Shown piece by piece: positions 315-27,412 of a DNA stretch of 27,643 nt. The stretch is from a virus, in IMG/VR virus record IMGVR_UViG_3300048999_000170, positions 1-27,643 of that record; one strand, given 5' to 3'. Position 1 is the first letter of the stretch. Every line of letters begins with the position of its first letter. The position numbers and the translations under genes are program-made. The notes under the pieces were generated by a model. The model had not been told where the DNA came from, searched no databases, and saw nothing but the letters and a program-made list of their open reading frames with translations.

Positions 315-2117
315 TCAGTTCACCGGCTTGCGCTTGCTGACCCCGAAGCTCAGCCTCGGGTCACCGGTCGGGCCGGTTCCGGCCAGGGCCATCAGGAGGT
401 TGGACGCTGGTCCACCTCCGACGGGTTGCTGGCCGGGAGGTCCCTGAGGGGGGCCGCCAGGTCCTGCCGGGCCTTCAGGTCCGGGTGGTGCTCCTCCGCC
501 GGCTGCCGGGTCTTGTCCTTGAACTGGTGCTTCCGGTGCGGGTGGAGGTGGTGCGGGAGGGAACGCCTTCTCTACGGCGTCCTCAACAGTGGCGCCCTTC
601 TGGAGGGCCTGGGCGTACGCGCCCAGCTTCATGACGATCTCGGTCGGGTCTCCGCCCTGCATCGCCATCCCGGGGATGGCCTGCGCGAGCGCGGCCATAC
701 TGGCGGCGATCGCGTCGCGGGTGTTCTCGACGTAGATCTTCTTCTGCTCCGCGGTGACATCCAGGTCGAACGGCATCTGCCGCTGGACGGTGTCCCGGGA
801 GAAGACGTTCGAGGTCAGCCCCTGGAGCAGGAACACCAGGGCCCGGTTCGGATCCAGGCCGGCGGTGAGGCCGTAAGACACCGAGCAGGTGTAGTTCCCG
901 GCGATGTCCTTCGACGGCTTGTACTTCATCTCGAAGGGCGCGCCGTCCTGTAGGCCGGCGATGCTCTTCTCGACGTTCGGCCAGAGCTTCTCGTCCATCT
1001 CGAAGCACATCTCGAGGACCATGGTCAGGCCGCTCGCGATCCTGCCCTGCAAGGTCTTGATGCGCCCGTCGCTGCCCGTGAGCAGCGCCTGGACGCCCTT
1101 GCCGGTGATGATGCTGGCGTCGCTCTGTCCGTCCTGCAGCTCGCTATGGCGAGCGCCGGTACGGAGTTCGGACTGGAGGTTCTGCAGCTCGATGAACGGA
1201 GTGTTCGGGACGTCCATCCGGACGCGCCCGATCTTCTCCGGCGAGTCGCTCTGCATCACGGCCTGGTTGCCGACCTCGAACTCGTTCACGTCGCGCGGCA
1301 CCGCCATCGGTGCGTTCGCGACGTCGTCGGCGATCTGCAGCGTCAGGTTGCTGAAGCGAGCGCGGGCGAGCTGGACCCAGATCACGTCGTCGTACGCGCC
1401 ACGGGGGATCTCGCCGGCCTTCGGCCGCTCGACGACCTGGGCGCGGCAGCGCCCGATGAGGTTCGGGACCCGGTCCAACTCGAGTCGGGCTTCCGGGACG
1501 AACAGGATGTCGCCGGTGGCGTCCATGTACCGGACGACCTCGACCTCGAGGGTCGCCTCACCGAGGATCCGAGCAAGCTGGAGAGCGTGCTCGGGGAACT
1601 CCCCCATCAGCTCCTGTACGGACCGACGGAAGCACCGGGCGAACCAGGTGGTCTTGCCCTTGCGGTCGTTCTGGTAGAGCGCACCCAGGGCACTCTCGAC
1701 GTAGATGCAGGGGATCTTCTCGGCGAAGTCAGGCTCGACGGTGTACACCGTGAAGCCGAAGCTCCCGAGATGGTCGCCGGCCAGGTTATTCTGGTCGGAA
1801 AGCTTGGAGCGCATGACGTAGTGGTTGGCGATCTTGGTCCGCTTGTCCGCGGCCTTCCGGGCAACGTCGGTCGCCATGTTCGGGTTAGCGCACGTGAACG
1901 TCGGAAGCGGTGCGATCTGCTCGGCGGCGGCCTGGGCCGCGACGTCGATGAAGTTCGCGATCATCGGCTCGGGGATCTCCTCAGGGAAGAACCCCGGAGC
2001 CACCTGATTCCACCGTCCTTCGCGGATCGCGAGGACGTCGCGGTTCTTCCGCCACCGCTCGGCGAACCTCTGCTTACCCAGCTCGACGGTCCTGAGCGCC
2101 TGCTCCATCGTCGTCAC
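315..2117 (-). CDS. phage portal protein
   Basis: This 600-residue protein would form the dodecameric ring at the capsid vertex through which DNA is packaged and ejected. The length, the mixed alpha/beta body, the long helical stretch after about residue 440 (dense in Ala/Gln/Glu) and the position directly after the large terminase all fit actinophage portal proteins. The C-terminal tail, about residues 520-575, is a low-complexity Pro/Gly/Gln run. The GTG start at 2117 has AGGAGA upstream and overlaps the terminase stop by four bases (GTGA), so the two are translationally coupled. Identity rests on family resemblance and synteny; no catalytic motif is expected in a portal. Confidence 0.85.
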   Translation of the reverse strand: MTTMEQALRTVELGKQRFAERWRKNRDVLAIREGRWNQVAPGFFPEEIPEPMIANFIDVAAQAAAEQIAPLPTFTCANPNMATDVARKAADKRTKIANHYVMRSKLSDQNNLAGDHLGSFGFTVYTVEPDFAEKIPCIYVESALGALYQNDRKGKTTWFARCFRRSVQELMGEFPEHALQLARILGEATLEVEVVRYMDATGDILFVPEARLELDRVPNLIGRCRAQVVERPKAGEIPRGAYDDVIWVQLARARFSNLTLQIADDVANAPMAVPRDVNEFEVGNQAVMQSDSPEKIGRVRMDVPNTPFIELQNLQSELRTGARHSELQDGQSDASIITGKGVQALLTGSDGRIKTLQGRIASGLTMVLEMCFEMDEKLWPNVEKSIAGLQDGAPFEMKYKPSKDIAGNYTCSVSYGLTAGLDPNRALVFLLQGLTSNVFSRDTVQRQMPFDLDVTAEQKKIYVENTRDAIAASMAALAQAIPGMAMQGGDPTEIVMKLGAYAQALQKGATVEDAVEKAFPPAPPPPAPEAPVQGQDPAAGGGAPPGPEGPAGPGGPPQGPPGQQPVGGGPASNLLMALAGTGPTGDPRLSFGVSKRKPVN

Positions 2118-4090
2118 GAGGTTCTCCTGTACTGCTGAAGGTCAACGACCGTGGCCCTCGCGCGGTCGCGCGGGGAGGCCATGCGGCTGTACTTGCGGGG
2201 CCGCTGAACGGCCTGGGTGCCCTTGACGTAGTCGCGGCACCCGATCTCGAAGAACCAAAGCGCCATCACCATGTCGATGGGGGTCTTCTTGGGGTCGGTG
2301 TCTGGTGTCCAGATGCCCAGCTGGGCAACGAGAGTCTGGATGTCGCCGTCGTGGCGAGGTAGTTCGAGCAGTGGGGGGAGGATCTCCTTCTGGAGTCCGT
2401 CCTCCTGGAGCTCGTAGATCCCGAACAGCGGGGACATACTGCCCACCCCGAAGCTGACGTCGTGCTTGTTCTTGCCGGTGTAGTGCCCGGTGAGCCGGAC
2501 ACCCCGGGAGGCGAGCCATTGGTTCAGCTCGAAGTCCTGCGTGAACATCGTCAGGAGGCCGGTCTTCTCGATCCGCCACTCCTGAACCGAGAACTCGTTC
2601 GTGATCGCCTTCAGCTGGTCCTTCAGCCCCTCGGGGGTCGGGTGCTTCACGTTCCAGGCGTCGTACAAGAACCGCTTGCCGGAGAACTTGTCCACGGCGC
2701 CGACGGTGAAGGCCGCGGCGCCGGTGGTCGCCGGGTCCAGAGACCCGATGACGTACAGGCCGGCCGGCACAGAGGCGAGACCGCCGTCCTTGCCGCGCCG
2801 GCGGGCCTTGTTCGTGGCGTTCGTCAGTGCGTGCTGAGGGAAGGCGGCGACGCCCTGGATGTCCAGCTGCATGTACGCCTGGGCCCAGACGTCGACGTCC
2901 GTACCTTCGCGCACCAGCGCGAGGTGTTTGCCGTCGAAACGGGGGAACGTCCCGTCTCCGTTCCCGTGCTCGCACTCGAAGGTGCCGCACGGACAGGGGT
3001 CGTCGAGCGTCCACCAGGAAGTGGTCGCTTCCGGCCACAACGTGACCCAGTTCTCTGGGTCCGGGTCATCCTCCAGGAGGACGGGCTGGGAGAGGTAGGT
3101 CCAGGGAGTTCTACCGCTCTGGAAGTTGTCGCCCTTCCGGAGCTGGGAGTACAGGTCACCGGGCGCGATGCGCGTCCCGATGACGATGATCCGGCCGGAC
3201 AGGCCGGGCCGGCTGGCGATATCCAGCGTCAGCCAGCGGAGTTGCTTCTTCCACTCCTGGGCGTTCTCGGTGTCGACGACGTCATCAGCCAGGACGAGGT
3301 CGAGGCGCTTGCCGTAGACGTGGCTACCGAGGCCGAGGGCCTGGATCGTCGGGTCCTTGTCGGCTGCGTCCCTGTCGGCCGCCGCCAGGCGGATCCGGCT
3401 CGAGGACCACTCGTCAGAGGTGGCCTCGAAGCCACCCTCCGGGGCGAAGTCCCGGATCAGGTCGATGTGGTCCGGGTGGGTCAGCTGGGACTTGACACCG
3501 GAGAGCATGTCCTTCGCCATGTCCGCACCCTTGGAGATCAGGGCGATCTTGATGGCTGGGTTCACGCAGATCCGGTAGGTCGCGTAGTCGATCGTCAGGG
3601 TCGTCGTCTTGCCGTGGTTTGGCGGGACGTTCACGACCAGACGGGTCGCGGAGTGCTTCTCGTACGTCTGCGCGGGGTGGAGATCCGAGGGGTCGCGCCC
3701 CTCTAGGATGTCGATCCACTGCTGCTGGTGGGGGTAGACCGGCCGGCCGAGGTACTTCATCCGCCAGGCCGCGAACCCCATGGCTCGAGCGGCGGTGCGG
3801 TTCTCATCCCGGCTCGTCGTGGAGACCTTTCGGGTCGCCATGACGGCGTCAGCCTTCCCGCGGAAGACCTCGTCGTTCTTGCGCCAGTACTCGTACGTCT
3901 TCCGGGACCGCTCGACGCGGTCGCACGCAGCGTCGATGTTGTAGCCCGAAGAGATGTAGTCGAGGAAGGCGAGCTTCGCCTGGACGGCGGTGAACTTCTT
4001 GCCGCCGGCGGACACCCCACCGCGGGACCGCGGGGGCTTCTTCGGGTTCGTCCCTGACCCTCCGGGGGCCGGGACGTAGCGCTTCACCAC
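2114..4090 (-). CDS. terL: terminase large subunit with N-terminal HTH-like segment
   Basis: This is the packaging motor: an ATPase that translocates DNA plus an RNase H-fold nuclease that cuts concatemers. The 658-residue protein shows a Walker A-type loop VPPNHGKTT (155-163), Walker B LDLVLADD (263-270), a coupling motif IGTR (304-307) and nuclease acidic residues at D452 (SLDPA), E508 and D607 (DMVMALWF). Residues 37-80 look like a helix-turn-helix segment (AFLDYISSGYNIDAACDRV), which could supply the DNA recognition normally given by a small terminase; no separate small subunit is seen. Two tandem GTG codons follow AGGAGG: the first (4090) is only about 4 bases away, the second (4087) is better spaced and may be the true start. 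Confidence 0.93.
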   Translation of the reverse strand: MVKRYVPAPGGSGTNPKKPPRSRGGVSAGGKKFTAVQAKLAFLDYISSGYNIDAACDRVERSRKTYEYWRKNDEVFRGKADAVMATRKVSTTSRDENRTAARAMGFAAWRMKYLGRPVYPHQQQWIDILEGRDPSDLHPAQTYEKHSATRLVVNVPPNHGKTTTLTIDYATYRICVNPAIKIALISKGADMAKDMLSGVKSQLTHPDHIDLIRDFAPEGGFEATSDEWSSSRIRLAAADRDAADKDPTIQALGLGSHVYGKRLDLVLADDVVDTENAQEWKKQLRWLTLDIASRPGLSGRIIVIGTRIAPGDLYSQLRKGDNFQSGRTPWTYLSQPVLLEDDPDPENWVTLWPEATTSWWTLDDPCPCGTFECEHGNGDGTFPRFDGKHLALVREGTDVDVWAQAYMQLDIQGVAAFPQHALTNATNKARRRGKDGGLASVPAGLYVIGSLDPATTGAAAFTVGAVDKFSGKRFLYDAWNVKHPTPEGLKDQLKAITNEFSVQEWRIEKTGLLTMFTQDFELNQWLASRGVRLTGHYTGKNKHDVSFGVGSMSPLFGIYELQEDGLQKEILPPLLELPRHDGDIQTLVAQLGIWTPDTDPKKTPIDMVMALWFFEIGCRDYVKGTQAVQRPRKYSRMASPRDRARATVVDLQQYRRTS

Positions 4091-4147
4091 GCGCCCTCCT
4101 GGGGGCCGAGTTCGGGGGTGGGTACCGGGACCCCATCAGGGGCTCCC

Positions 4148-4208
4148 GTTCAGGAATCAGGGCAGTTCAGGAATCCTGAGCGGATAGACAGCTCGGAATG
4201 AGCGGATA
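4148..4208. repeat. two pairs of short direct repeats upstream of terminase
   Basis: GTTCAGGAATC occurs at 4148-4158 and 4165-4175, and TGAGCGGATA at 4177-4186 and 4199-4208. Repeat starts are 17 and 22 bases apart. They lie 58-118 bases upstream of the terminase start, where a late-gene activator or terminase recognition complex could bind. No good -35/-10 pair was found on the leftward strand here, which would fit activator-dependent late transcription. This is direct sequence observation with an inferred role. Confidence 0.5.
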
Positions 4209-4218
4209 CCCCGCTCGT

Positions 4219-4343
4219 CGGAGAATTCGAAATTCTCCGGAAGGGTCTTCTATAAGGATTCGACCTCTAGGTCGAATCCACGGAGCCGGTTAGAACCGGC
4301 TCCTTAGTTCAGTGAAGGGAACGACCTAAAGTCGTTTCCCTTC
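4219..4343. other. array of four stem-loops (array 1)
   Basis: Four consecutive hairpins are packed into 125 bases. H1 is 4219-4239, 9-bp stem and 3-base loop CGA. H2 is 4256-4279, perfect 10-bp stem, loop TCTA. H3 is 4282-4303, perfect 9-bp stem, loop TAGA. H4 is 4314-4343, 12-bp stem with one bulged T, loop CTAAA. The stem sequences differ from each other, so this is not a repeat array; what is conserved is the shape. None is followed by a T-run on either strand, so they do not look like ordinary terminators. A structured RNA, RNA-processing sites or DNA cruciform sites are possible. A second array of the same style lies at 25422-25566. Confidence 0.6.
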
Positions 4344-4357
4344 AGGTTCTTGTCTGT

Positions 4358-4411
4358 CTCGCTCACTCAGCTCGCTCGGCCCTCGAGGGCCTCGCTCACT
4401 TCGTTCGCTCG
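4358..4411. repeat. imperfect direct repeats flanking a 14-bp palindrome
   Basis: CTCGCTCACT-type 21-base units at 4358-4378 and 4391-4411 (four mismatches) flank the perfect palindrome GGCCCTCGAGGGCC at 4378-4391. A related GC-rich stretch lies near 4990-5030. Such CGCTCACTTCGTTCGCTCG runs occur in non-coding DNA of high-GC genomes. The role is unknown: replication origin, packaging site or transcription terminator are all possible. Confidence 0.45.
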
Positions 4412-4440
4412 ACGCGCGAACGCGCTCTCACTTGTATAAG

Positions 4441-4599
4441 GGGGGTGATGGGGCACCCCCATTCCACGCCGGGACGCGGAATCAGGGTCCCGGCAGCAGT
4501 CAGAGCCACCTGATGTGGCCTCTGACCTGCAAGGTCTTCCAGATGTAACAACTTCATCACAGTATCCGTCAAGGGGTTGCTATCTCACCCCTTGGACGG
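4441..4599. other. further stem-loops in the terminase-early intergenic region
   Basis: Three more hairpins extend array 1. One is at 4441-4460 (GGGGGTG paired with CACCCCC, 6-base loop). One is at 4499-4526 (11-bp stem with one bulged C, loop CTGAT). One is at 4566-4599 (12-bp stem with one bulged G, 9-base loop). The third overlaps a promoter-like sequence whose -10 starts at its last base pair. A smaller hairpin, GCGCCCC-CTA-GGGGCGC, lies near 4670. None has a T-run. Confidence 0.5.
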
Positions 4600-4605
4600 T
4601 ATAAG
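4577..4605 (+). promoter_or_regulatory. weak rightward promoter candidate
   Basis: TTGCTA (4577-4582) and TATAAG (4600-4605) are separated by 17 bases, a plausible sigma-70-type promoter. The -35 lies within the loop of the 4566-4599 hairpin. Two other TATAAG boxes, at 4251 and 4435, have poorer -35 partners. No gene starts for over 900 bases downstream, so any transcript would begin as untranslated RNA. Confidence 0.3.
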
Positions 4606-5113
4606 TCCTACCCTTGCCGGGCCATTAGGGCCGGCGCTCAGACCCCGGAGGGGGCTGCCGGCCACTGCGCCCCCTAGGGGCGCTTCCCCCGTAGGACGAG
4701 CCTGGGGATTATCCAAATAATGCCGAGGTGAGTCAATGTGTTTCACGGCGGAGCCGTTAAACATCCGGGTCAAGCGCACGCGTGCGCGCGACCATTGCCC
4801 GCGCGTGCGTGAGCACGCGGGCGCGGTGAACTAGTGCACCTCCGGTGTGCGTGTTCACCCGAAATCAGCGGTGGCTGGGTGTGCTTGCACCCCACCACCA
4901 TGGGCTCGAGCCCCTGTATGTGCGTGCGTACGTGGACCGATGTACCACCAGGGACACGTACCCGGCTCGGCTCATGCCTCCCCCACTCCCTCCTAGTGGG
5001 GTCGCTCGCTGCGAGCGCTCCGCTCGCTCCCCCACCACTCCGGCACTGCTGTGCCACTGGGTGCTCTGGGGCACCGTGGCACGGATATGCCAAGACGAAC
5101 CCACGATCCGGTG

Positions 5114-5141
5114 TTGACACTGGAGATCTCCGGAGTAACGT
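5114..5141 (+). promoter_or_regulatory. early rightward promoter with embedded operator
   Basis: TTGACA (5114-5119) is a perfect -35 and TAACGT (5136-5141) an acceptable -10, with a 16-base spacer containing the palindrome GGAGATCTCC. TGACACTG at 5115-5122 overlaps the -35, and its inverted partner CGGTGTCA lies at 5145-5152, just past the -10. The stretch 5122-5142 recurs with two mismatches, on the other strand, at the leftward replication promoter (25334-25354). It is the best promoter for the early rightward genes from 5525, and the operator-like halves suggest control by the phage repressor. Confidence 0.65.
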
Positions 5142-5474
5142 TCTCGGTGTCAGGCCAGCCGGGAGGCAGTCCAGACAGGGAGGGTCCGGGGCTCGCAGTA
5201 CGAGCCAAGATCGGGCGTCCGGGGCGGAGCCCCGGGGGGCGCAGCGGATGCGGCCGGACCTTCCAGTCGGACAACCGAATAGCTCGACCTCGCTTGGACA
5301 CGAACTCAGCCGCCCTGATGGCCCTGAACCCCGATCAGCGAGTAGTCACCTAGGACATGGCGCGAGCGGCCCGGCAAGACGGGGCTGCGACGAGTGGGCA
5401 CAGGTAGGTGACCGTTCGCCCTACACGAGCACCTGAGTGCTCATGAGGGGCTAGAACCCTATGCAGTGCGATGG

Positions 5475-5505
5475 GGGACGGGCTGTCAGAGACCCCGTCC
5501 CTTTT
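5475..5505 (+). terminator. terminator-like hairpin (attenuator) in the early leader
   Basis: GGGACGGG (5475-5482) pairs with CCCGTCCC (5494-5501) and is followed by TTTT (5502-5505), a classical intrinsic terminator shape. It lies between the early promoter and the first early gene, whose start is 20 bases later. The gene's GGGGAG ribosome site follows immediately. Either it ends an upstream transcript or it is an attenuator that must be read through. Confidence 0.55.
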
Positions 5506-5524
5506 CGTCTGAGAGGGGAGCAAC

Positions 5525-5857
5525 ATGAGCAAGATTCAAGCTACGCCGGACTGGAACCTGTCATCCGAAGAGATGCTGACCCAGATCGATCTGAGCCGGT
5601 TCAACGGCGACACGATCTCGGATGGCGCAGCCGTCCGGGTCGCATCCTGGTACCAGTCCCCGGGCACCGTAGGGCACGTCCTGGCGAGCCTGGCCAGCGG
5701 CCAGCCGGTCGAGCGTGCCGAGCTGTTCGACGACCTCAGCCGGACGCTGGCCGAGGTCCGGGCGAACGTCCTGGAGAGTGACGCGGATCGCGTCTTCAAT
5801 CTGCAGGCTCTGCAGGCGTTGGTTCTCTGGGCGCTCGACGCGCCGGAGGTGGACTGA
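5525..5857 (+). CDS. early protein, unknown, first gene of the rightward operon
   Basis: This is a 110-residue acidic soluble protein, ATG at 5525 with GGGGAG upstream. It is mostly helical by appearance (residues 55-105 carry Leu/Ala heptad-like spacing), with no cysteine cluster, signal peptide or membrane segment. I do not recognise a family. It opens the early rightward operon behind a long leader and a terminator-like hairpin, and the next gene starts one base after its stop. First genes of phage early operons often act on the host, but nothing here proves that. Confidence 0.8.
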   Translation: MSKIQATPDWNLSSEEMLTQIDLSRFNGDTISDGAAVRVASWYQSPGTVGHVLASLASGQPVERAELFDDLSRTLAEVRANVLESDADRVFNLQALQALVLWALDAPEVD

Positions 5858-15989: not shown

Positions 15990-16225
15990 TGAGTCCCTTC
16001 CAGGAGTACGGCCATGCCGGCGCGGAGAACCGCGACCCTGGCCTCGTTCTCATCGGATCGCTCCATGGCCTGCCATAGGCTCGCCTGAAGCTCGGAGACT
16101 TCGTCGGGGCTCAGTTGGAGCCACGTCGTGTCATCGGCGGTACGGGCGAGGAGATCCAAGAGGACCTCCTGCACGACGGCTGTCGCGCCGTCGTGCTCCT
16201 CCGCCACCACGTCCTGATCGCTCAT
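15986..16225 (-). CDS. small acidic helical protein, unknown
   Basis: ATG 16225 gives 79 residues, very acidic and helical (VVQEVLLDLLARTADDTTWL, SPDEVSELQASLWQAM). The stop overlaps the amidase ATG, and the start overlaps the sigma-like gene's stop. GGGAG lies upstream. Position between the sigma-like factor and the lysis genes is suggestive of a regulatory or lysis-accessory role, but nothing shows it. Confidence 0.7.
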   Translation of the reverse strand: MSDQDVVAEEHDGATAVVQEVLLDLLARTADDTTWLQLSPDEVSELQASLWQAMERSDENEARVAVLRAGMAVLLEGTQ

Positions 16226-16995
16226 TCGCTGTAGCTCCCGTCCGTGATCGCTCGAGCGGATGCGTTCGAGATCGCGTGCCGCCGGCCTACGATCTCGGCG
16301 TCCCATCCCGGCTCCGACGGGTCCTTCCGCGGCTTCGGGCCGCCGAGGATCTGCTGGACCTTCTTGATCGCACGGTCCATCCGGCGCATCACCGTCTGGG
16401 CGGACACCGGGGGGTCGCAGAGCTCCCCGATCTCCTCGTACGTCTTCCCGTGCTGGTAGTGCCACTCGATCAGGCCCTGGTCCGCCGGCGGAATCAGGGA
16501 CACCGCCCGGCTGACGTCCGCCAGGGTCGTCAGCCAGTTCCCGCCTTCAGCCGGGTCCGGCTTGCTGGACCTGCCAGGACTCCCGCCCTCAGGGAGGTTG
16601 TTCTCCGGGTACATCCAGGACGCGTCGTCGTAGATGTGGTGGAGGAGACCGCGCCCGTCACCGGCCGCCGTGGTCCCCTTGAGGACCCCGATCTGGTACC
16701 AGACGTCGTCGGAGACGTCGCCCTTGTTCTCGTACGCCCGCTGGCGCCGTGCGTACTCCCGGGCGTAGTTCCTCATTGCCCTTGAGAGCTTCCGGGAGCA
16801 CTCCATGGGGTCTTCTAGCTCCAGGGCTTCCTGGAGCCTCTCGGGATGCTTCACGGCCCAGACAAGGGCCTCCTGGGACAGGTCGTCTTTCTCCACCATC
16901 GGGAACCACGAGTGGACCTGGCGAGCGACGATCTCCGCCAGCTCTGCGAGGTACTCGTACGTCTCGACCGACCAGTCTTGTGCTGCCTGGGTCAT
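16222..16995 (-). CDS. sigma-70-like transcription factor
   Basis: ATG 16995 overlaps the previous stop and gives 257 residues. Residues about 17-85 resemble sigma region 2 (EIVARQVHSWFPMVEKDDLS and the following Arg-rich helices, RAMRNYAREYARRQR). Residues about 163-215 resemble region 4, with a clear helix-turn-helix (GKTYEEIGELCDPPVSAQTV then MRRMDRAIKKVQQIL). Similar proteins are annotated as sigma factors in actinophages. Lying just before the lysis genes, it might direct late transcription. A 14-base upstream ATG (17010) is a less likely start. Confidence 0.75.
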   Translation of the reverse strand: MTQAAQDWSVETYEYLAELAEIVARQVHSWFPMVEKDDLSQEALVWAVKHPERLQEALELEDPMECSRKLSRAMRNYAREYARRQRAYENKGDVSDDVWYQIGVLKGTTAAGDGRGLLHHIYDDASWMYPENNLPEGGSPGRSSKPDPAEGGNWLTTLADVSRAVSLIPPADQGLIEWHYQHGKTYEEIGELCDPPVSAQTVMRRMDRAIKKVQQILGGPKPRKDPSEPGWDAEIVGRRHAISNASARAITDGSYSE

Positions 16996-17168
16996 ACGGC
17001 AGCACCGCATCCCAAGCACGCCATACCCTCGACCAGGTACATCTCGTGCCTCGGGTTGTCGCACCGCTCCTCGATCACTCCGAGGTGGCCTGCGGCTGCG
17101 ATCGCGGCCGGGTAGTAGATCCCGGTGCGACCTGGTGTCCACTCGGCAGTGGGCTCTGGGGTGATCAC
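16992..17168 (-). CDS. small Cys-rich protein, unknown
   Basis: GTG 17168, preceded by GGGAGGTGGC, gives 58 residues. The C-terminal half carries RCDNPRHEMYLVEGMACLGC, a possible zinc site from C37, H41, C53 and C56. The first half (GRTGIYYPAAIAAAGHLGVI) is hydrophobic but interrupted. It overlaps both neighbours by four bases, between the exonuclease and the sigma-like gene. Function unknown; a zinc-knuckle adaptor is a guess. Confidence 0.65.
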   Translation of the reverse strand: MITPEPTAEWTPGRTGIYYPAAIAAAGHLGVIEERCDNPRHEMYLVEGMACLGCGAAV

Positions 17169-19034: not shown

Positions 19035-19684
19035 CAGTCAAGTCCCATCTTCTCGAGCACCCAGGGTGCCCCGTGCTTGATTACGGTGTCGTTCACGTCC
19101 GCCGGTAGCTCGATGACGATCGGGTTCTCTACCCGTCGTGCGATATCCGCCTGGATCTTGCGACCCGCTTTGTCCGGGTCGACGCAGATGAACACCGTGT
19201 CGTAGTCCTGGAGAAGACGCGCCCACGTGGAACCGTTGACGCCCCAGTGGTCGACGCCGGGGATCCCGATAGCCGGGACTCCCACGACCGCTGACATCAC
19301 CATCGTGTCGAGTTCTCCTTCACAGACAGCGATCCACGGCTCCGACTTGTGCAGGTCCAGGACGTTGTACAACCCCGTCCGGACCGCCTTCTCCTGCGAG
19401 TACTTCTCGTCGTCGTCCTCAGTGAGCACGAGCTTCCGGAACCGCATCCCGACCACACCAGCAGGGGTGAGGTACGGGATCGCTAGCCTGCCGGCGAAGC
19501 GCTCGTGCCCCTCGATCGGATCCGCGCAGTACCCGAGCTGGAAGCTCGCCGCGGTGCGTTCACTGATGGCCCGCCCCGCGAGATACTCATCAGCCGGCGA
19601 GCCCGGGAACGCTCCGGCGTACCGCTCAGTCGCCTGCGCCAGAAGGGCGCGCCGCTGAGCAGACAAGCGAGGAAGTTCCGCCAT
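19034..19684 (-). CDS. DnaG-type primase catalytic (TOPRIM) protein
   Basis: This 216-residue protein matches the central part of DnaG. The N-terminal segment has ADEYLAGRAISERTAASFQL, then GRLAIPYLTPAGVVGMRFRKL. The TOPRIM domain has VCEGELDTMVMSAVVGVPAI (Glu122) and FICVDPDKAGRK (D169, D171), which bind Mg for primer synthesis. The zinc-binding domain normally at the N-terminus is encoded separately at 19795-20139, with a 37-residue gene between. ATG 19684 directly follows the stop of that small gene. Confidence 0.9.
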   Translation of the reverse strand: MAELPRLSAQRRALLAQATERYAGAFPGSPADEYLAGRAISERTAASFQLGYCADPIEGHERFAGRLAIPYLTPAGVVGMRFRKLVLTEDDDEKYSQEKAVRTGLYNVLDLHKSEPWIAVCEGELDTMVMSAVVGVPAIGIPGVDHWGVNGSTWARLLQDYDTVFICVDPDKAGRKIQADIARRVENPIVIELPADVNDTVIKHGAPWVLEKMGLD

Positions 19685-23301: not shown

Positions 23302-23735
23302 CAGATGAACTCGCTGTGGTGGCCGTCACCCTTGGCGGACTGGTTCGGGCAGGACCAGAGCTTGTAGGTCTTCCCGGCCTTGGTCTTGATCTCCTTGTAG
23401 ACCACGGCCTCCGAGCACTTGTCGCACTTCTTGCCCTCGGGGTGGTACTTCACCCCGGAGTCACTCGTACTACCACTGGATCCGCCGGACTGGCTCGCAG
23501 CGCCGGCCGGGCGAGTCGCGGCTTCCGCGGCCTGCAGCTCCTTCTCGACGGCGATGATCGTCGGTACCAGCTCGGTCAGCTGGACCTCGATCAGGCGCTC
23601 CTTCAACTGCTCCGCGTCCATGGCGCGGATCGTCAGCATCCCGGAGTCGTAGTTCGCGCTGGTCTTCAGATTCACCGTGTACGCCGCCTCGACGTCCTCG
23701 GGCACCAGCACGGTCTCGTTCGCTTGCTCGCTCAC
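23301..23735 (-). CDS. zinc-ribbon protein of the replication operon, unknown
   Basis: GTG 23735, preceded by GGAAGGTAGCAA, gives 144 residues. The N-terminal half (residues 15-70) looks like strands plus a helix (LIEVQLTELVPTIIAVEKEL). A Ser/Gly linker (81-94) leads to a zinc ribbon: KKCDKCSEAVVYKEIK and YKLWSCPNQSAKGDGHH (C103, C106, a third cysteine near 128 and a His/Cys ligand). The layout of a folded domain, flexible linker and zinc ribbon suits a DNA-binding replication accessory next to the Cas4-like nuclease. Family not recognised. Confidence 0.7.
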   Translation of the reverse strand: MSEQANETVLVPEDVEAAYTVNLKTSANYDSGMLTIRAMDAEQLKERLIEVQLTELVPTIIAVEKELQAAEAATRPAGAASQSGGSSGSTSDSGVKYHPEGKKCDKCSEAVVYKEIKTKAGKTYKLWSCPNQSAKGDGHHSEFI

Positions 23736-24649
23736 TTGCTACCTTCCTTGTAGTTCGGGTCGCTCGGGTCCCAGAGGGCGCTGTTGGCGCCGTCCTGGGC
23801 GTAGCAGGCACCCGCTACCGGACAGGTCCGGCAGGCGTCGCCTACGTTCGGGATGAACGCCTGGTTCTCGAGGACCGATTCGAGCTGTGCTCGGAAGCCG
23901 GTAAACCTCTGCTCCAGGTACGGGAGGGTGTACTTGTCCAGCGGCCGGAGGGGCGTGTGCTCCCCGGTCTTCGTCTTCACGAACGTCCCGAACGCCGGCC
24001 TCTGGTGGCCGGACATCTCGATGACGCTGGCGTACAGCCCCTGCTGCAGCAGCTCCTCGGGGGTGCTGGCGCCGGACTTCAGGTCCGTCACCACTAGGTC
24101 TCCGTCGGGGAGCGTGAAGACCCGGTCAGGGATCGCGATCAACGGGCGCTGTTCGCCGTTGATCTCCAGTGTCACATGGAAGTCACACTCGATCGCCGGG
24201 AACTCGACCAGGCCGAGCCCCGGAAGGTCGTCGTAGAACGTCGCGAACTTCCAGCCGGTCCTCGCGCGCCACTGCAGGTAATTGCTTACCTGCTTGGGCG
24301 CGTTCTCTTTCCACCAGTCGTAGTTCTGGCCCTTGCCGTTCCCGGCGGAGAACCACTGGTCGTGTGGGACACCGGAGCGCTCGACCTCTCGGGCGGTCAG
24401 CTCATCGAGCTTTCCCAGGGTGAGCTCTTCGATCTCCAGTGTCACGTCCTGGTCAGCCGGAGACACAGAGAACTCCACCGACCGCTTATCCAGGTCCTCG
24501 GTGACCTCGTGGATGGTAGAACCGCCCACGAGCCACCACGCCGGCACCTTCGGCGCCCGCTGGATCCTCTTCAGCTGGAACTGCTTCTGGCACCGCAGCC
24601 AGTCCCCAAGCTGGCTGTGTGAGACGTGCTCGTAGTCGAGCCCGGTCAC
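23732..24649 (-). CDS. Cas4/RecB-like PD-(D/E)XK exonuclease with Fe-S cysteines
   Basis: This 305-residue nuclease has an N-terminal cysteine C20 in WLRCQKQFQLKR and a C-terminal triad C273, C276, C282 (CRTCPVAGAC), the pattern that holds the 4Fe-4S cluster of Cas4/AddB-type nucleases. Catalytic residues are H47/E48 (STIHEV), D175 (IPDRV), D189 and K191 (VTDLKSG) and Q203/Y206 (QQGLY). It would resect DNA during replication or recombination. No CRISPR array or other cas gene is present. Two exact copies of GATCTCCAGTGTCAC lie inside it at 24161-24175 and 24431-24445. Confidence 0.88.
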   Translation of the reverse strand: MTGLDYEHVSHSQLGDWLRCQKQFQLKRIQRAPKVPAWWLVGGSTIHEVTEDLDKRSVEFSVSPADQDVTLEIEELTLGKLDELTAREVERSGVPHDQWFSAGNGKGQNYDWWKENAPKQVSNYLQWRARTGWKFATFYDDLPGLGLVEFPAIECDFHVTLEINGEQRPLIAIPDRVFTLPDGDLVVTDLKSGASTPEELLQQGLYASVIEMSGHQRPAFGTFVKTKTGEHTPLRPLDKYTLPYLEQRFTGFRAQLESVLENQAFIPNVGDACRTCPVAGACYAQDGANSALWDPSDPNYKEGSK

Positions 24650-24969
24650 GGGTTCTTCAGCTTGCAGTAGAAGTCCTTGTCGATCTGAACGTCGACGTAG
24701 TGCATCCTCGGGTCATCCAACTGCCACCCCGAGGGCTCACTGATCTCGTTCGCGATCTCGCGACGCTGCTCATCGAGCAGCTGCTGAGCGGCCTTCGCCG
24801 CGGCGTCAGCAGCGATAGAGAGCAGGTTCCATTCGGTGGTCGCCATGCCCTGACGGACCAGGGGCGTGTCGCCGTCCTCGAAGACGGCGGCGATCATCGC
24901 ACTCAGGAGAACTTCCCTCAACTCGCGAGGCTCTGTGGGCGCCTCTGCGCGCCCCGGAGGCAGATCCAT
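24646..24969 (-). CDS. helical early protein, unknown
   Basis: ATG 24969 gives 107 residues. After a Pro/Glu-rich start, it is helical (LREVLLSAMIAAVFEDGD; IAADAAAKAAQQLLDEQRRE) and ends with strands (MHYVDVQIDKDFYCKLKNP). It overlaps the upstream gene by 52 bases; an internal ATG at 24897 would remove the overlap but has no better ribosome site. GTGA couples it to the nuclease gene. Function unknown. Confidence 0.65.
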   Translation of the reverse strand: MDLPPGRAEAPTEPRELREVLLSAMIAAVFEDGDTPLVRQGMATTEWNLLSIAADAAAKAAQQLLDEQRREIANEISEPSGWQLDDPRMHYVDVQIDKDFYCKLKNP

Positions 24970-25154
24970 TCCGTCGGTACCTCACCTTCCTGTTCGGGCG
25001 TCCAGTCGACGCTGACGCCGTCCCAGGTCCAATCCTGGGCCATCCTCTTCGTGACTCTGGAGATCTCCTCGATGTCGGTTACGTTCACGATGACGCCGAC
25101 ACCCTCCAGGTCGTACCACTCAAAGTCTTCTGATCCCCGCACGACTCTCCCCAC
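24918..25154 (-). CDS. first gene of the leftward replication operon, unknown
   Basis: This protein of up to 78 residues starts at GTG 25154 or at GTG 25142, which has GGGGAG closer upstream. Its core is FEWYDLEGVGVIVNVTDIEE (residues 11-30), then QDWTWDGVSVDWTPEQ and VPTEWICLRG, a beta-rich small domain with three Trp residues. It is the first gene behind promoters at 25221-25250 and 25335-25364. Function unknown. Confidence 0.6.
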   Translation of the reverse strand: MGRVVRGSEDFEWYDLEGVGVIVNVTDIEEISRVTKRMAQDWTWDGVSVDWTPEQEGEVPTEWICLRGAQRRPQSLAS

Positions 25155-25250: not shown

Positions 25251-25334
25251 GCACTCAGCTGGTTGGTTCCTGCAACGATCAGGTAACGCCGTGAAGTAAG
25301 TCCTTGCCGGGACCCGATCAGCCCCTCATGTGTA

Positions 25335-25364
25335 ACGTTACTCTGGAGATCCCCTGGGTGGCAA
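25335..25364 (-). promoter_or_regulatory. leftward promoter of the replication operon (distal, with shared element)
   Basis: Leftward TTGCCA (25364-25359) and TAACGT (25340-25335) are 18 bases apart. The segment 25334-25354 equals the spacer and -10 of the early rightward promoter (5122-5142) except for two bases. An operator-like TGACACTG lies just upstream at 25384-25377. This suggests the two early operons share one regulator. Confidence 0.55.
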
Positions 25365-25376
25365 GTTTGCCATCCC

Positions 25377-25407
25377 CAGTGTCACCGTGGTACGCTAAAG
25401 CTATAAT
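25377..25407 (+). promoter_or_regulatory. rightward promoter candidates facing the stem-loop array
   Basis: A consensus TATAAT lies at 25402-25407 with GTGTCA at 25379-25384, 17 bases upstream. A second possible pair is TTGCCA (25367-25372) with TACGCT (25391-25396), 18 bases apart. Either would start transcription just before the hairpins at 25422. TGGCAAGTTTGCCA (25359-25372) is a perfect inverted repeat joining the two divergent -35 boxes. Confidence 0.5.
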
Positions 25408-25421
25408 CGTCTTTCCCTATA

Positions 25422-25566
25422 GGAGCGCCTTTAGGCGCTCCAGTCGAAGAGCTGAAGGGCTTGAGGCCCTCAGCTCTGAGATAGAGGTGTCGTCTAGAGA
25501 CGACACAAGGGAGCTTCTCGAGAAGCTCCAATAGGAGAGGGCCCGAGCCGCTAGGCGGTCGGGCCC
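25422..25566. other. array of five stem-loops (array 2)
   Basis: Five consecutive hairpins fill 145 bases. They are 25422-25441 (8 bp, loop TTTA), 25448-25477 (12 bp with a bulged A, loop TTGAG or TTGA), 25487-25506 (8 bp, loop TAGA), 25510-25529 (8 bp, loop TCGA, a perfect 20-base palindrome) and 25539-25566 (12 bp with a bulged G, loop TAG). Stems are unrelated in sequence but the loops fit UNNA or a near variant. The array lies between a rightward TATAAT promoter and the 3' end of the repressor gene. It could be a small structured RNA of about 150 bases. No T-run follows. Confidence 0.6.
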
Positions 25567-25572
25567 ATCGTC

Positions 25573-25594
25573 GTACTACGGACTACGGAACTAC
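25573..25594. repeat. short tandem repeat ACTACGG at the 3' end of the repressor gene
   Basis: Three near-tandem copies of ACTACGG lie between array 2 and the repressor stop at 25591; the last overlaps that stop codon. No known role. Confidence 0.4.
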
Positions 25595-26046
25595 GGGCGC
25601 CTGATGATGGCGCCGTGCTCGCGATCCTCGCTCAGCGGTGGACCGTCAGAGTCCAGCCGCTGGAAGAACGGGAAGACGTCCTCCTCGTGGAGTGCGTCCG
25701 GGACGTACCCGATCACGACGTCCTGCTCGGCCAGCCGGTCGAGCCAGCCATCGACCCAGACCTCTATCCGAGGTGGGTTCGGCAGGCCCTTCCGCCGGCG
25801 GGCGATCTTACGCAGGAGCGTCGCCATGGTCAGCTCCAGGTGCTCGGTCTTCACGACCCACGGGATCATCTCGTCATGGCGTTCTCGCAGGGGTGCGAAC
25901 CCCCACTTCTTCATCGCGTTCGAGATCGCCGACGGGCTCACCTGATGGCCCGTCGACTCGTGGATCTTCTCGACGATCTGCTTCCTGTTCAGCCCCTCGG
26001 CTAACCAACGCCGGAGGGGCTCTTTCTCGATCACTCGCTCCGCCAT
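25591..26046 (-). CDS. helix-turn-helix DNA-binding protein, candidate immunity repressor
   Basis: ATG 26046, with AAGGGGG about 9 bases upstream, gives 151 residues; a longer frame upstream is non-coding in character. Residues about 8-43 form a helix-turn-helix (LRRWLAEGLNRKQIVEKIHE, VSPSAISNAMKKWGF), followed by a basic helix (ATLLRKIARRRKGLPNPP) and a C-terminal domain. It is the only leftward gene between the divergent integrase and replication operon, with operator-like TGACACCG in its own promoter spacer. This is the classical setting of a phage repressor. A role as an activator or Cro-like protein is also possible. Confidence 0.72.
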   Translation of the reverse strand: MAERVIEKEPLRRWLAEGLNRKQIVEKIHESTGHQVSPSAISNAMKKWGFAPLRERHDEMIPWVVKTEHLELTMATLLRKIARRRKGLPNPPRIEVWVDGWLDRLAEQDVVIGYVPDALHEEDVFPFFQRLDSDGPPLSEDREHGAIIRRP

Positions 26047-26309: not shown

Positions 26310-26344
26310 GAAGATCTCAGGTGTAACCATGCAGCGGAGGGGCT

Positions 26345-27412
26345 ATGAAGCAAAAGCTGTCGCCGGCGATCGACGACTACATTCTTCACCGGCGATCGCT
26401 CGGCAAAGCTGCCGAGACGATCCGGTCGAACGTCAGCATCCTCGGCAGGTTCCTCGAGATCACGGGGAACCTGTACGTCGAGAACATCGGCGAGGAGCAC
26501 ATCGACACGTACTTCCGGACGCTGACTGACTCTGGGAAGCGCTCAGCGGCTTCCCAGGGCGTCGACACGGCGACCCTGAAGGGATTCTTCAAGTGGGCTC
26601 TCCGGACCCGCAGGACGCGGAACAACCCGATCGCCGACCGGGAGGCACCGCGCGCCCCGAAGCGCACCTGGCGCGGGATCCCCGTCAGCAAGGTCCCGGC
26701 CCTCCTGGATGCCGCCAAGCATCCGCGTGACCGGATGCTCTTGGCGCTCGGGTGCTACCTGATCGGTCGAGGCGTGGAGTTCGCGCTCTTGCGCGTCGAC
26801 GACATCGACCTGGATTCCGGGATGATCCGCTACACCATCCCGAAGACCTACAAGACGGACAGCATGCCGATCTCGACAGAGCTGGACGAAGAGCTTCGAC
26901 GGTGGCTGACGTGGTACACGGAGGCATGCGGCCCCTTGGATCCGCATTGGTACCTGGTCCCGGCGAAGAACCCCCCGCGCCTGGGCGCTGATCGAAAGGT
27001 CATCCCAGGCACGGGGCGGCCTATCCCGAACAAGCCGATCTCGACGCCGAAGCGAAAGGGGACCCAGCAGAGGATCGCGCACGCCGCGCTGAACGCGGTG
27101 GGCTTCCCGACTCGTGACGAGAACGGCAAGGCCCTCGGCGAGGGGATGCACACCCTCCGCCGGAGCATCGCCCGCGGACTGTACTTCCAGCTCCTGGATG
27201 AGGGCGAGCCGAACGCCATCGAGGTCGTCAGGGCCATGGGGAACTGGTCGACCGAGAAGCAGGTCCGGGACTACATCGGACTGCCGGCGGGGCATGAGGT
27301 CAGGAACGCGCGGATCCGGGGTAAACGGATGTTCCCCGGGCTTGTCAGTAGTAATGTCGCCTCCCTAGGGGAGGCCAGAGAGAGGGCTGAGCTGAGGAGT
27401 TCCAGTGGCTGA
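26345..27412 (+). CDS. int: tyrosine recombinase integrase
   Basis: This 355-residue protein has an N-terminal core-binding domain (about 5-95) and a C-terminal catalytic domain. Catalytic positions are Arg142 (LIGRGVEFALLR), a Lys near 167-170 (IPKTYKTDSMPI), H269 and R272 (HTLRRS), W301 in the H/W position (MGNWSTEKQ) and the nucleophile Y310 (VRDYIGL). The set is complete, so the enzyme should integrate the phage at attB. GGAGGGGCT precedes the ATG. It is divergent from the repressor gene. The attP core was not identified. Confidence 0.93.
   Translation: MKQKLSPAIDDYILHRRSLGKAAETIRSNVSILGRFLEITGNLYVENIGEEHIDTYFRTLTDSGKRSAASQGVDTATLKGFFKWALRTRRTRNNPIADREAPRAPKRTWRGIPVSKVPALLDAAKHPRDRMLLALGCYLIGRGVEFALLRVDDIDLDSGMIRYTIPKTYKTDSMPISTELDEELRRWLTWYTEACGPLDPHWYLVPAKNPPRLGADRKVIPGTGRPIPNKPISTPKRKGTQQRIAHAALNAVGFPTRDENGKALGEGMHTLRRSIARGLYFQLLDEGEPNAIEVVRAMGNWSTEKQVRDYIGLPAGHEVRNARIRGKRMFPGLVSSNVASLGEARERAELRSSSG

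Follow-up and report, generated by a model that had tools for sequence, protein, structure and literature searches.

Five clustered hairpins behind a phage repressor gene: a possible two-way terminator with recurring loops

The phage, the repressor border and array 2

The window, by which we mean the whole 27,643-nt stretch of DNA analysed, is a viral record of 27.6 kb with 65% G+C. It carries genes for a terminase, a portal, a Cas4-like exonuclease, a DnaB-like helicase, an L5 gp49-like protein, an integrase and a repressor (PHROG 3929), a gene content that puts it with the actinobacterial siphophages. The nearest named phages infect Streptomyces, namely Beephvirinae by terminase (37%) and Arquatrovirinae by repressor (∼30–35%); closer relatives are metagenome contigs with terminase identities of 60–68%. 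Three relatives (G001, G002 and G004) are near-whole and carry the repressor, exonuclease and integrase together. No relatives of the terminase were found in bacterial genomes and plasmids, and the window holds no tRNA genes. The protein encoded at 16222–17004 (minus strand) gives a weak match to sigma-70 region 4 and is a candidate phage sigma-like regulator. The features referred to below are as follows.

2114–4090, minus strand: terminase large subunit gene (PHROG 38, E = 1.6e-54), downstream of array 1
4219–4344, minus strand: array 1, four hairpins, ∼130–255 nt upstream of the terminase start
24646–25154, minus strand: small genes at the head of the leftward early operon, preceding the Cas4-like exonuclease gene (23732–24649)
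25334–25351, minus strand: box GATCTCCAGAGTAACGTT, with a near-exact twin at 5125–5142 (plus strand)
25379–25407, plus strand: P+, a putative sigma-70-like promoter (GTGTCA-17-TATAAT) scored by its consensus match (10/12), reading into array 2
25422–25441, plus strand: hairpin 1, 8 bp, loop TTTA
25448–25477, plus strand: hairpin 2, 13 pairs, bulged A at 25456 (5′ arm on the plus strand), loop TGA closed by U-G
25487–25506, plus strand: hairpin 3, 8 bp, loop TAGA
25510–25529, plus strand: hairpin 4, 8 bp, loop TCGA, a perfect 20-nt palindrome
25539–25566, plus strand: hairpin 5, 12 pairs, bulged G at 25547, loop TAG, separated from the repressor stop codon by 24 nt
25591–26046, minus strand: immunity repressor gene (PHROG 3929, E = 6e-16; 32–34% identity to Arquatrovirinae repressors)
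26345–27412, plus strand: tyrosine integrase gene, lying right of the repressor gene, an order kept in G004, G001 and G002

Alignment to Streptomyces phage repressors indicates that the likely repressor start is the ATG at 26046. Read on the minus strand, the repressor gene (26046–25591) is followed by array 2, a 267-nt gap and the early operon with the exonuclease, and this order recurs in Pablito, Hank144, TagePhighter, Thestral and Salutena. Array 2 itself lies 24 nt behind the repressor gene, which runs opposite to P+.

The preliminary description had reported five stem-loops with unrelated stems lying almost end to end, and folding, a hairpin scan and shuffling all bore this out. The five lie within 145 nt (25422–25566). 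A scan for stems of eight perfect pairs, or 11 with one bulge, counted five hairpins in 160 nt, while the biggest cluster in 300 shuffles had two. Fold z-scores were −7.0 on the plus strand (25400–25600) and −7.7 on the minus strand (25414–25590), and a sliding fold of the whole window put array 2 and array 1 above every other stretch on either strand, with array 2 at the top. Array 2 is thus clearly non-random. The single bulged bases after eight pairs were found as described (A25456 and G25547). The five stems are unrelated, unlike the copies of a repeat array, and array 2 does not fit a copied repeat. The claim of U-N-N-A loops closed by C-G holds exactly for TTTA, TAGA and TCGA (3 of 5 loops); hairpin 2 has a UGA triloop closed by U-G, which reads TTGA on one count, and hairpin 5 a UAG triloop. 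The loops say nothing about the strand in use, because UNNA is its own reverse complement.

The TATAAT said to precede the array is present at 25402–25407, with a fair −35 element, GTGTCA, 17 nt upstream (10/12 together). By this consensus match array 2 would have a promoter of its own in its own direction, as expected of a small RNA gene. Between the leftward early region and P+ lies an inverted repeat, CTGGGTGGCAAGTTTGCCATCCCCAG (25354–25379), possibly a regulator site. The box GATCTCCRGAGTAACGTT occurs at 5125–5142 (plus strand), at 25334–25351 (minus strand) and, with three mismatches, at 26313–26330 (plus strand); in all, two exact and three weaker copies were counted compared with 0.04 expected. 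Since these sites precede the rightward genes, the early operon and the integrase, the GATCTCCRGAGTAACGTT/GATCTCCAGAGTAACGTT box may be a repressor operator with an early promoter, or else an early promoter element.

Searches of Rfam covariance models with array 2 returned no match at the gathering thresholds and none at E up to 5, and on six related loci tRNAs only. Array 2 and its neighbourhood had no DNA similarity among 50,697 phage records. Among viral contigs, hairpin 1 had one exact match, near an insertion element of an unrelated contig, which we judged to be chance.

Repressor borders in relatives and the strand question

The preliminary description had argued against terminators from the missing U-tracts. 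Three observations leave this argument unsupported. First, most (∼40) of ∼54 repressor relatives have a single strong hairpin without a T-run 11–29 nt past the repressor stop codon, which makes the position of array 2 that of a repressor terminator; here five stable GC-rich hairpins follow the stop codon, the first at 24 nt. Second, in Streptomyces clavuligerus structured transcript ends lacking U are the majority class (353/535), while structured ends with at least three U in eight bases are classed as intrinsic terminators (PMC8269248). Third, hairpin clusters without U-tracts have been reported to act as terminators (Gupta and Pal 2021, PMC8355165).

The tails of the hairpins differ between the strands. 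Read in the repressor sense, the eight bases after each of the five hairpins contain 4, 4, 4, 2 and 2 T; on the plus strand the mean is 1.2, and the background mean is 1.46. Tails with at least three U in eight follow 3/5 hairpins in the repressor sense and 1/5 on the plus strand. The reported lack of a T-run therefore stands for the plus strand and not for the minus strand, and the U-rich tails on the minus strand speak for termination of the repressor transcript. In contrast, exact matches of 11–14 nt across array contexts (AGGGCTTGAGGCCC, CGAACGAAGTGAG and AACGAAGTGAG) lie on the same strand, that is, post-repressor arrays read from P+ match pre-terminase arrays read in the terminase sense; the one strand exception is a CG-alternating 11-mer. 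AGGGCTTGAGGCCC, the apical part of hairpin 2, is identical in the pre-terminase array of contig L150. As the tails point to the minus strand and the cross-array matches to the plus strand, use of both strands would be the simplest reading. A bulge on the 5′ arm was considered as a strand marker and dropped, since the single bulge of Beephvirinae hairpins occurs on either arm.

Among the near-whole relatives, G001 and G002 have one hairpin past the repressor and no array. The more distant G004 (terminase 51%) has six hairpins there (19277–19546), with terminator-like sites facing both ways and GGCGGCCC common to three neighbouring hairpins. No sequence homologue of array 2 was found, and the G004 array resembles it by layout only. 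In G004 a promoter-like box, TTGACA-16-TATCAT (11/12), is oriented toward the array and repressor, while a second one diverges toward the early operon. Within this array (19383–19458; locus L172) we also noted an AT-rich stretch in which TAGTAACTA-like words recur, together with a palindrome of alternating CG, ACGCGCGCACGCGC. Promoter-like boxes of at least 10/12 directed against the repressor occur in the window and in G004 and in 0/54 other repressor relatives, a comparison in which the relatives are not independent samples and both positives were known beforehand; G001, G002 and Pablito have no such antisense promoter even at 9/12. For these reasons, the co-occurrence of antisense promoter and array may serve as a lead, not as proof.

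These observations bear on the simplest alternative, an ordinary single repressor terminator accompanied by chance or decayed hairpins without function. Its stems would be expected to be unrelated, as they are, and one hairpin suffices in relatives; however, shuffles never exceed two hairpins, and G004 carries an array at the same place. We regard this as the least probable of the readings considered here.

Hairpin arrays upstream of terminase genes

Array 1 consists of hairpins at 4219–4239, 4256–4279, 4282–4303 and 4313–4344, whose loops read CGA/TTCGAA, TCTA, TAGA and CTAAA on the plus strand. Five related contigs (L005, L007, L150, L153 and L155) have three to five hairpins at a similar distance upstream of the terminase, with unrelated stems and the loops TCGA, TAGA, CTCTAA, CTGATA, TGA and others; in several of them a TATA-type box, e.g. 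CCCCTTATACATAATGGGAACCCC, lies ahead of the array. In Beephvirinae, at least one strong hairpin, and usually two, occurs in 29/29 leaders between the region of a TATATATATAATGGGG-like box and the terminase start. Their stems vary widely, and their loops are mostly CTGA, CTTA, CTAAA, CTCAA, CTGAA and TCA. A fixed loop pattern was present in 27/43 Beephvirinae leader hairpins compared with 10/102 hairpins within terminase genes, and in 8/18 array hairpins of the window's relatives compared with 1/26 controls. The earlier claim that loops rather than stems recur thus gained support from these arrays with UNNA-like loops. Such loops were also considered as a general mark of terminators; this was rejected, as they are mostly absent from the repressor hairpins of Arquatrovirinae and from the other intergenic hairpins of phage FlowerPower.

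In a 16-sequence alignment of Beephvirinae terminase leaders, which was not fitted to structure and has some rows misaligned by one base, 20 cells of the helices were changed on both sides compared with a mean of 11.2, above all 500 shuffles. The covariation score also exceeded that of slid versions of the helices; further pair types were not above shuffles, and some G-U pairs are tolerated. This covariation belongs to the Beephvirinae terminase leader, not to array 2 itself.

Other elements were noted around these leaders. A short conserved reading frame (..PSYLGIIPPTKG..) lies ∼100 nt upstream of the terminase in L178, L180, L184, L181, L188 and L191; in the Beephvirinae leader its DNA includes the invariant TCGGGATC, its product, which has a Pro-Pro stretch, resembles a leader peptide, and it may overlap part of leader hairpin B. 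The window has a 1.4 kb non-coding divergent region before the terminase (4090–5525) with many more palindromes, possibly a cos region, and a TGCAGGTCAGRGGCC-like box in it is common to L003, L005, L007 and L008. In L005, L007, L008 and L153, GTTGCC-N3-GGCAAC inverted repeats stand in series 600–700 nt upstream of the terminase and are possibly terminase or cos binding sites.

The recurrence of loops across both contexts is also in keeping with a dedicated small structured RNA. On this account P+ would give a stable ∼150-nt RNA that binds a protein or another RNA through its UNNA loops, and related RNAs would come from array 1 and the terminase leaders. A promoter-like box followed by an array in both contexts, constrained loops on free stems, and the same-strand matches AGGGCTTGAGGCCC, CGAACGAAGTGAG and AACGAAGTGAG between post-repressor and pre-terminase arrays all agree with it, whereas the U-rich tails on the opposite strand, the repressors of G001 and G002 without an array, the absent Rfam match and a bulge side that is not kept in Beephvirinae argue the other way. 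A protein-binding small RNA competes seriously with the terminator reading, although we hold the small-RNA reading as a whole to be doubtful. The proposal of a small structured RNA in the preliminary description accordingly keeps its footing in the recurring loops and in the promoter-like box of both array-bearing phages, with the terminator reading standing beside it; the roles it had suggested for such an RNA, protein binding or a decoy for an RNase or defence sensor, found no support.

Alternatively, the arrays might be cis-acting antitermination RNAs of the HK022 put/Tn916 canT type, with array 1 following the late promoter and array 2 following P+ in the direction of the integrase. Phage HK022 and Tn916 provide precedents for antiterminators made of RNA alone (PMC11658703), the arrays are promoter-proximal in two units, and the stretch from the TATATATATAATGGGG box to the terminase in Beephvirinae is a covarying leader of two hairpins, many of them with a single bulge. 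The path from P+ to the integrase, however, crosses the repressor in antisense, and the number of hairpins ranges from two to six, which leaves this explanation unlikely.

We also considered that the hairpins act as DNA, whether as cruciforms or as hairpins of single strands, during replication, packaging or recombination. An argument for the stability of such DNA hairpins, based on the T-A pair that closes TNNA loops, was not settled by the literature. The stems are nearly all Watson-Crick paired, the loops are symmetric, DNA folding of array 2 is equally far from chance (z −8.7), and array 1 is near a region matching the left end of Beephvirinae genomes. Array 2, however, is distant from the terminase, the U-rich tails and promoter-like boxes suggest transcription, and the G-U pairs of the leader helices are also at odds with a role as DNA; a DNA role is improbable.

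A proposed two-way terminator and its known counterparts

Our favoured explanation, for which we put the chances close to even, is that array 2 acts as a densely packed two-way terminator (attenuator) cluster within the region that controls lysis and lysogeny. From the right, it would end the repressor mRNA; from the left, it would stop transcription from P+ before antisense passage through the repressor, so that P+ would give rise to no more than a short RNA of ∼150 nt, rich in hairpins. We infer from several observations that P+ is active, that transcription stops at the hairpins and that both directions count. Array 2 occupies the place of the relatives' single hairpin, three of its hairpins have four T in eight in the repressor sense, and the UNNA pattern is retained on the opposite strand. 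The six hairpins of G004 are accompanied by terminator-like sites in either orientation and by a promoter-like box that is convergent with the repressor, an antisense promoter-like box of at least 10/12 occurs among the phages compared only in the two with arrays, and U-tract-less clusters are reported to terminate (PMC8355165).

Three points weigh against a two-way terminator alone. Five hairpins are superfluous for ending the repressor mRNA, because relatives with the same gene order manage with one. Conserved loops on free stems count against a pure terminator, because termination does not predict conserved loops, and the reading is further weakened because other FlowerPower intergenic hairpins mostly lack them. 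Before the terminase, where the arrays stand between a TATA box and the gene, plain terminators would shut the gene off unless an antiterminator acts; none was identified for the pre-terminase arrays. If one factor reads the loops, these arrays could be attenuators or antitermination sites of the late operon. The shared loop type leads us to conjecture that all these hairpins are the target of a single factor, be it RNA polymerase, Rho, an RNase or a phage antiterminator. On balance, array 2 is most likely a dense variant of the hairpin-cluster terminator; termination alone does not account for the loop constraint that array 2 has in common with the conserved terminase leader. More tentatively, the arrays could belong to one class of RNA elements in actinophages. 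Such elements would be promoter-proximal, with two to six hairpins that keep UNNA or CUNA(A) loops while their stems drift, and would control both the late (terminase) leader and the border of the repressor through a common loop-reading factor, conjecturally a phage antiterminator or a new host RNA-binding protein.

How transcription ends in high-GC actinobacteria, whose U-tracts are weak, is little understood. Hairpin clusters that keep their loops while their stems are free, found at a lysogeny switch and in a late leader of the same phages, would allow a direct test of the role of loops in U-poor termination or antitermination. Array 2 would bring a further level of control to the immunity region of Streptomyces-type phages, and its significance would be greater if a loop-reading factor exists.

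Little was found in the literature on mycobacteriophage small RNAs. The nearest counterparts are compared here. Like the clusters of PMC8355165 and the transcript ends of PMC8269248, array 2 comprises adjacent GC-rich hairpins that all lie within ∼170 nt of a stop codon, with no more than 80 nt between that codon and the nearest hairpin, without a strong U-tract on one strand and in an actinobacterial setting. It differs from them in having five hairpins nearly end to end with one loop type, a convergent promoter-like box behind it and a related array before another gene. Array 1, unlike array 2, recalls the staphylococcal cabRNA (PMC10686824), a phage-made hairpin RNA from the terminase region, although the array 1 RNA is putative, cabRNA arises inside terS-terL while array 1 lies upstream of the terminase, and array 1 has no link to a cyclase or to defence; a defence decoy role would be an analogy with this RNA only. 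With HK022 put and Tn916 canT the arrays share promoter-proximal stem-loops in mobile elements, a likeness of layout, and they differ in hairpin number and spacing. The repressor hairpin of Arquatrovirinae (Pablito, Hank144, Thestral and Salutena) matches array 2 in its place and in the order of repressor, gap, small gene and exonuclease; there, one long stem carries a loop of ∼7 nt, whereas array 2 has five short stems with loops of 3–4 nt.
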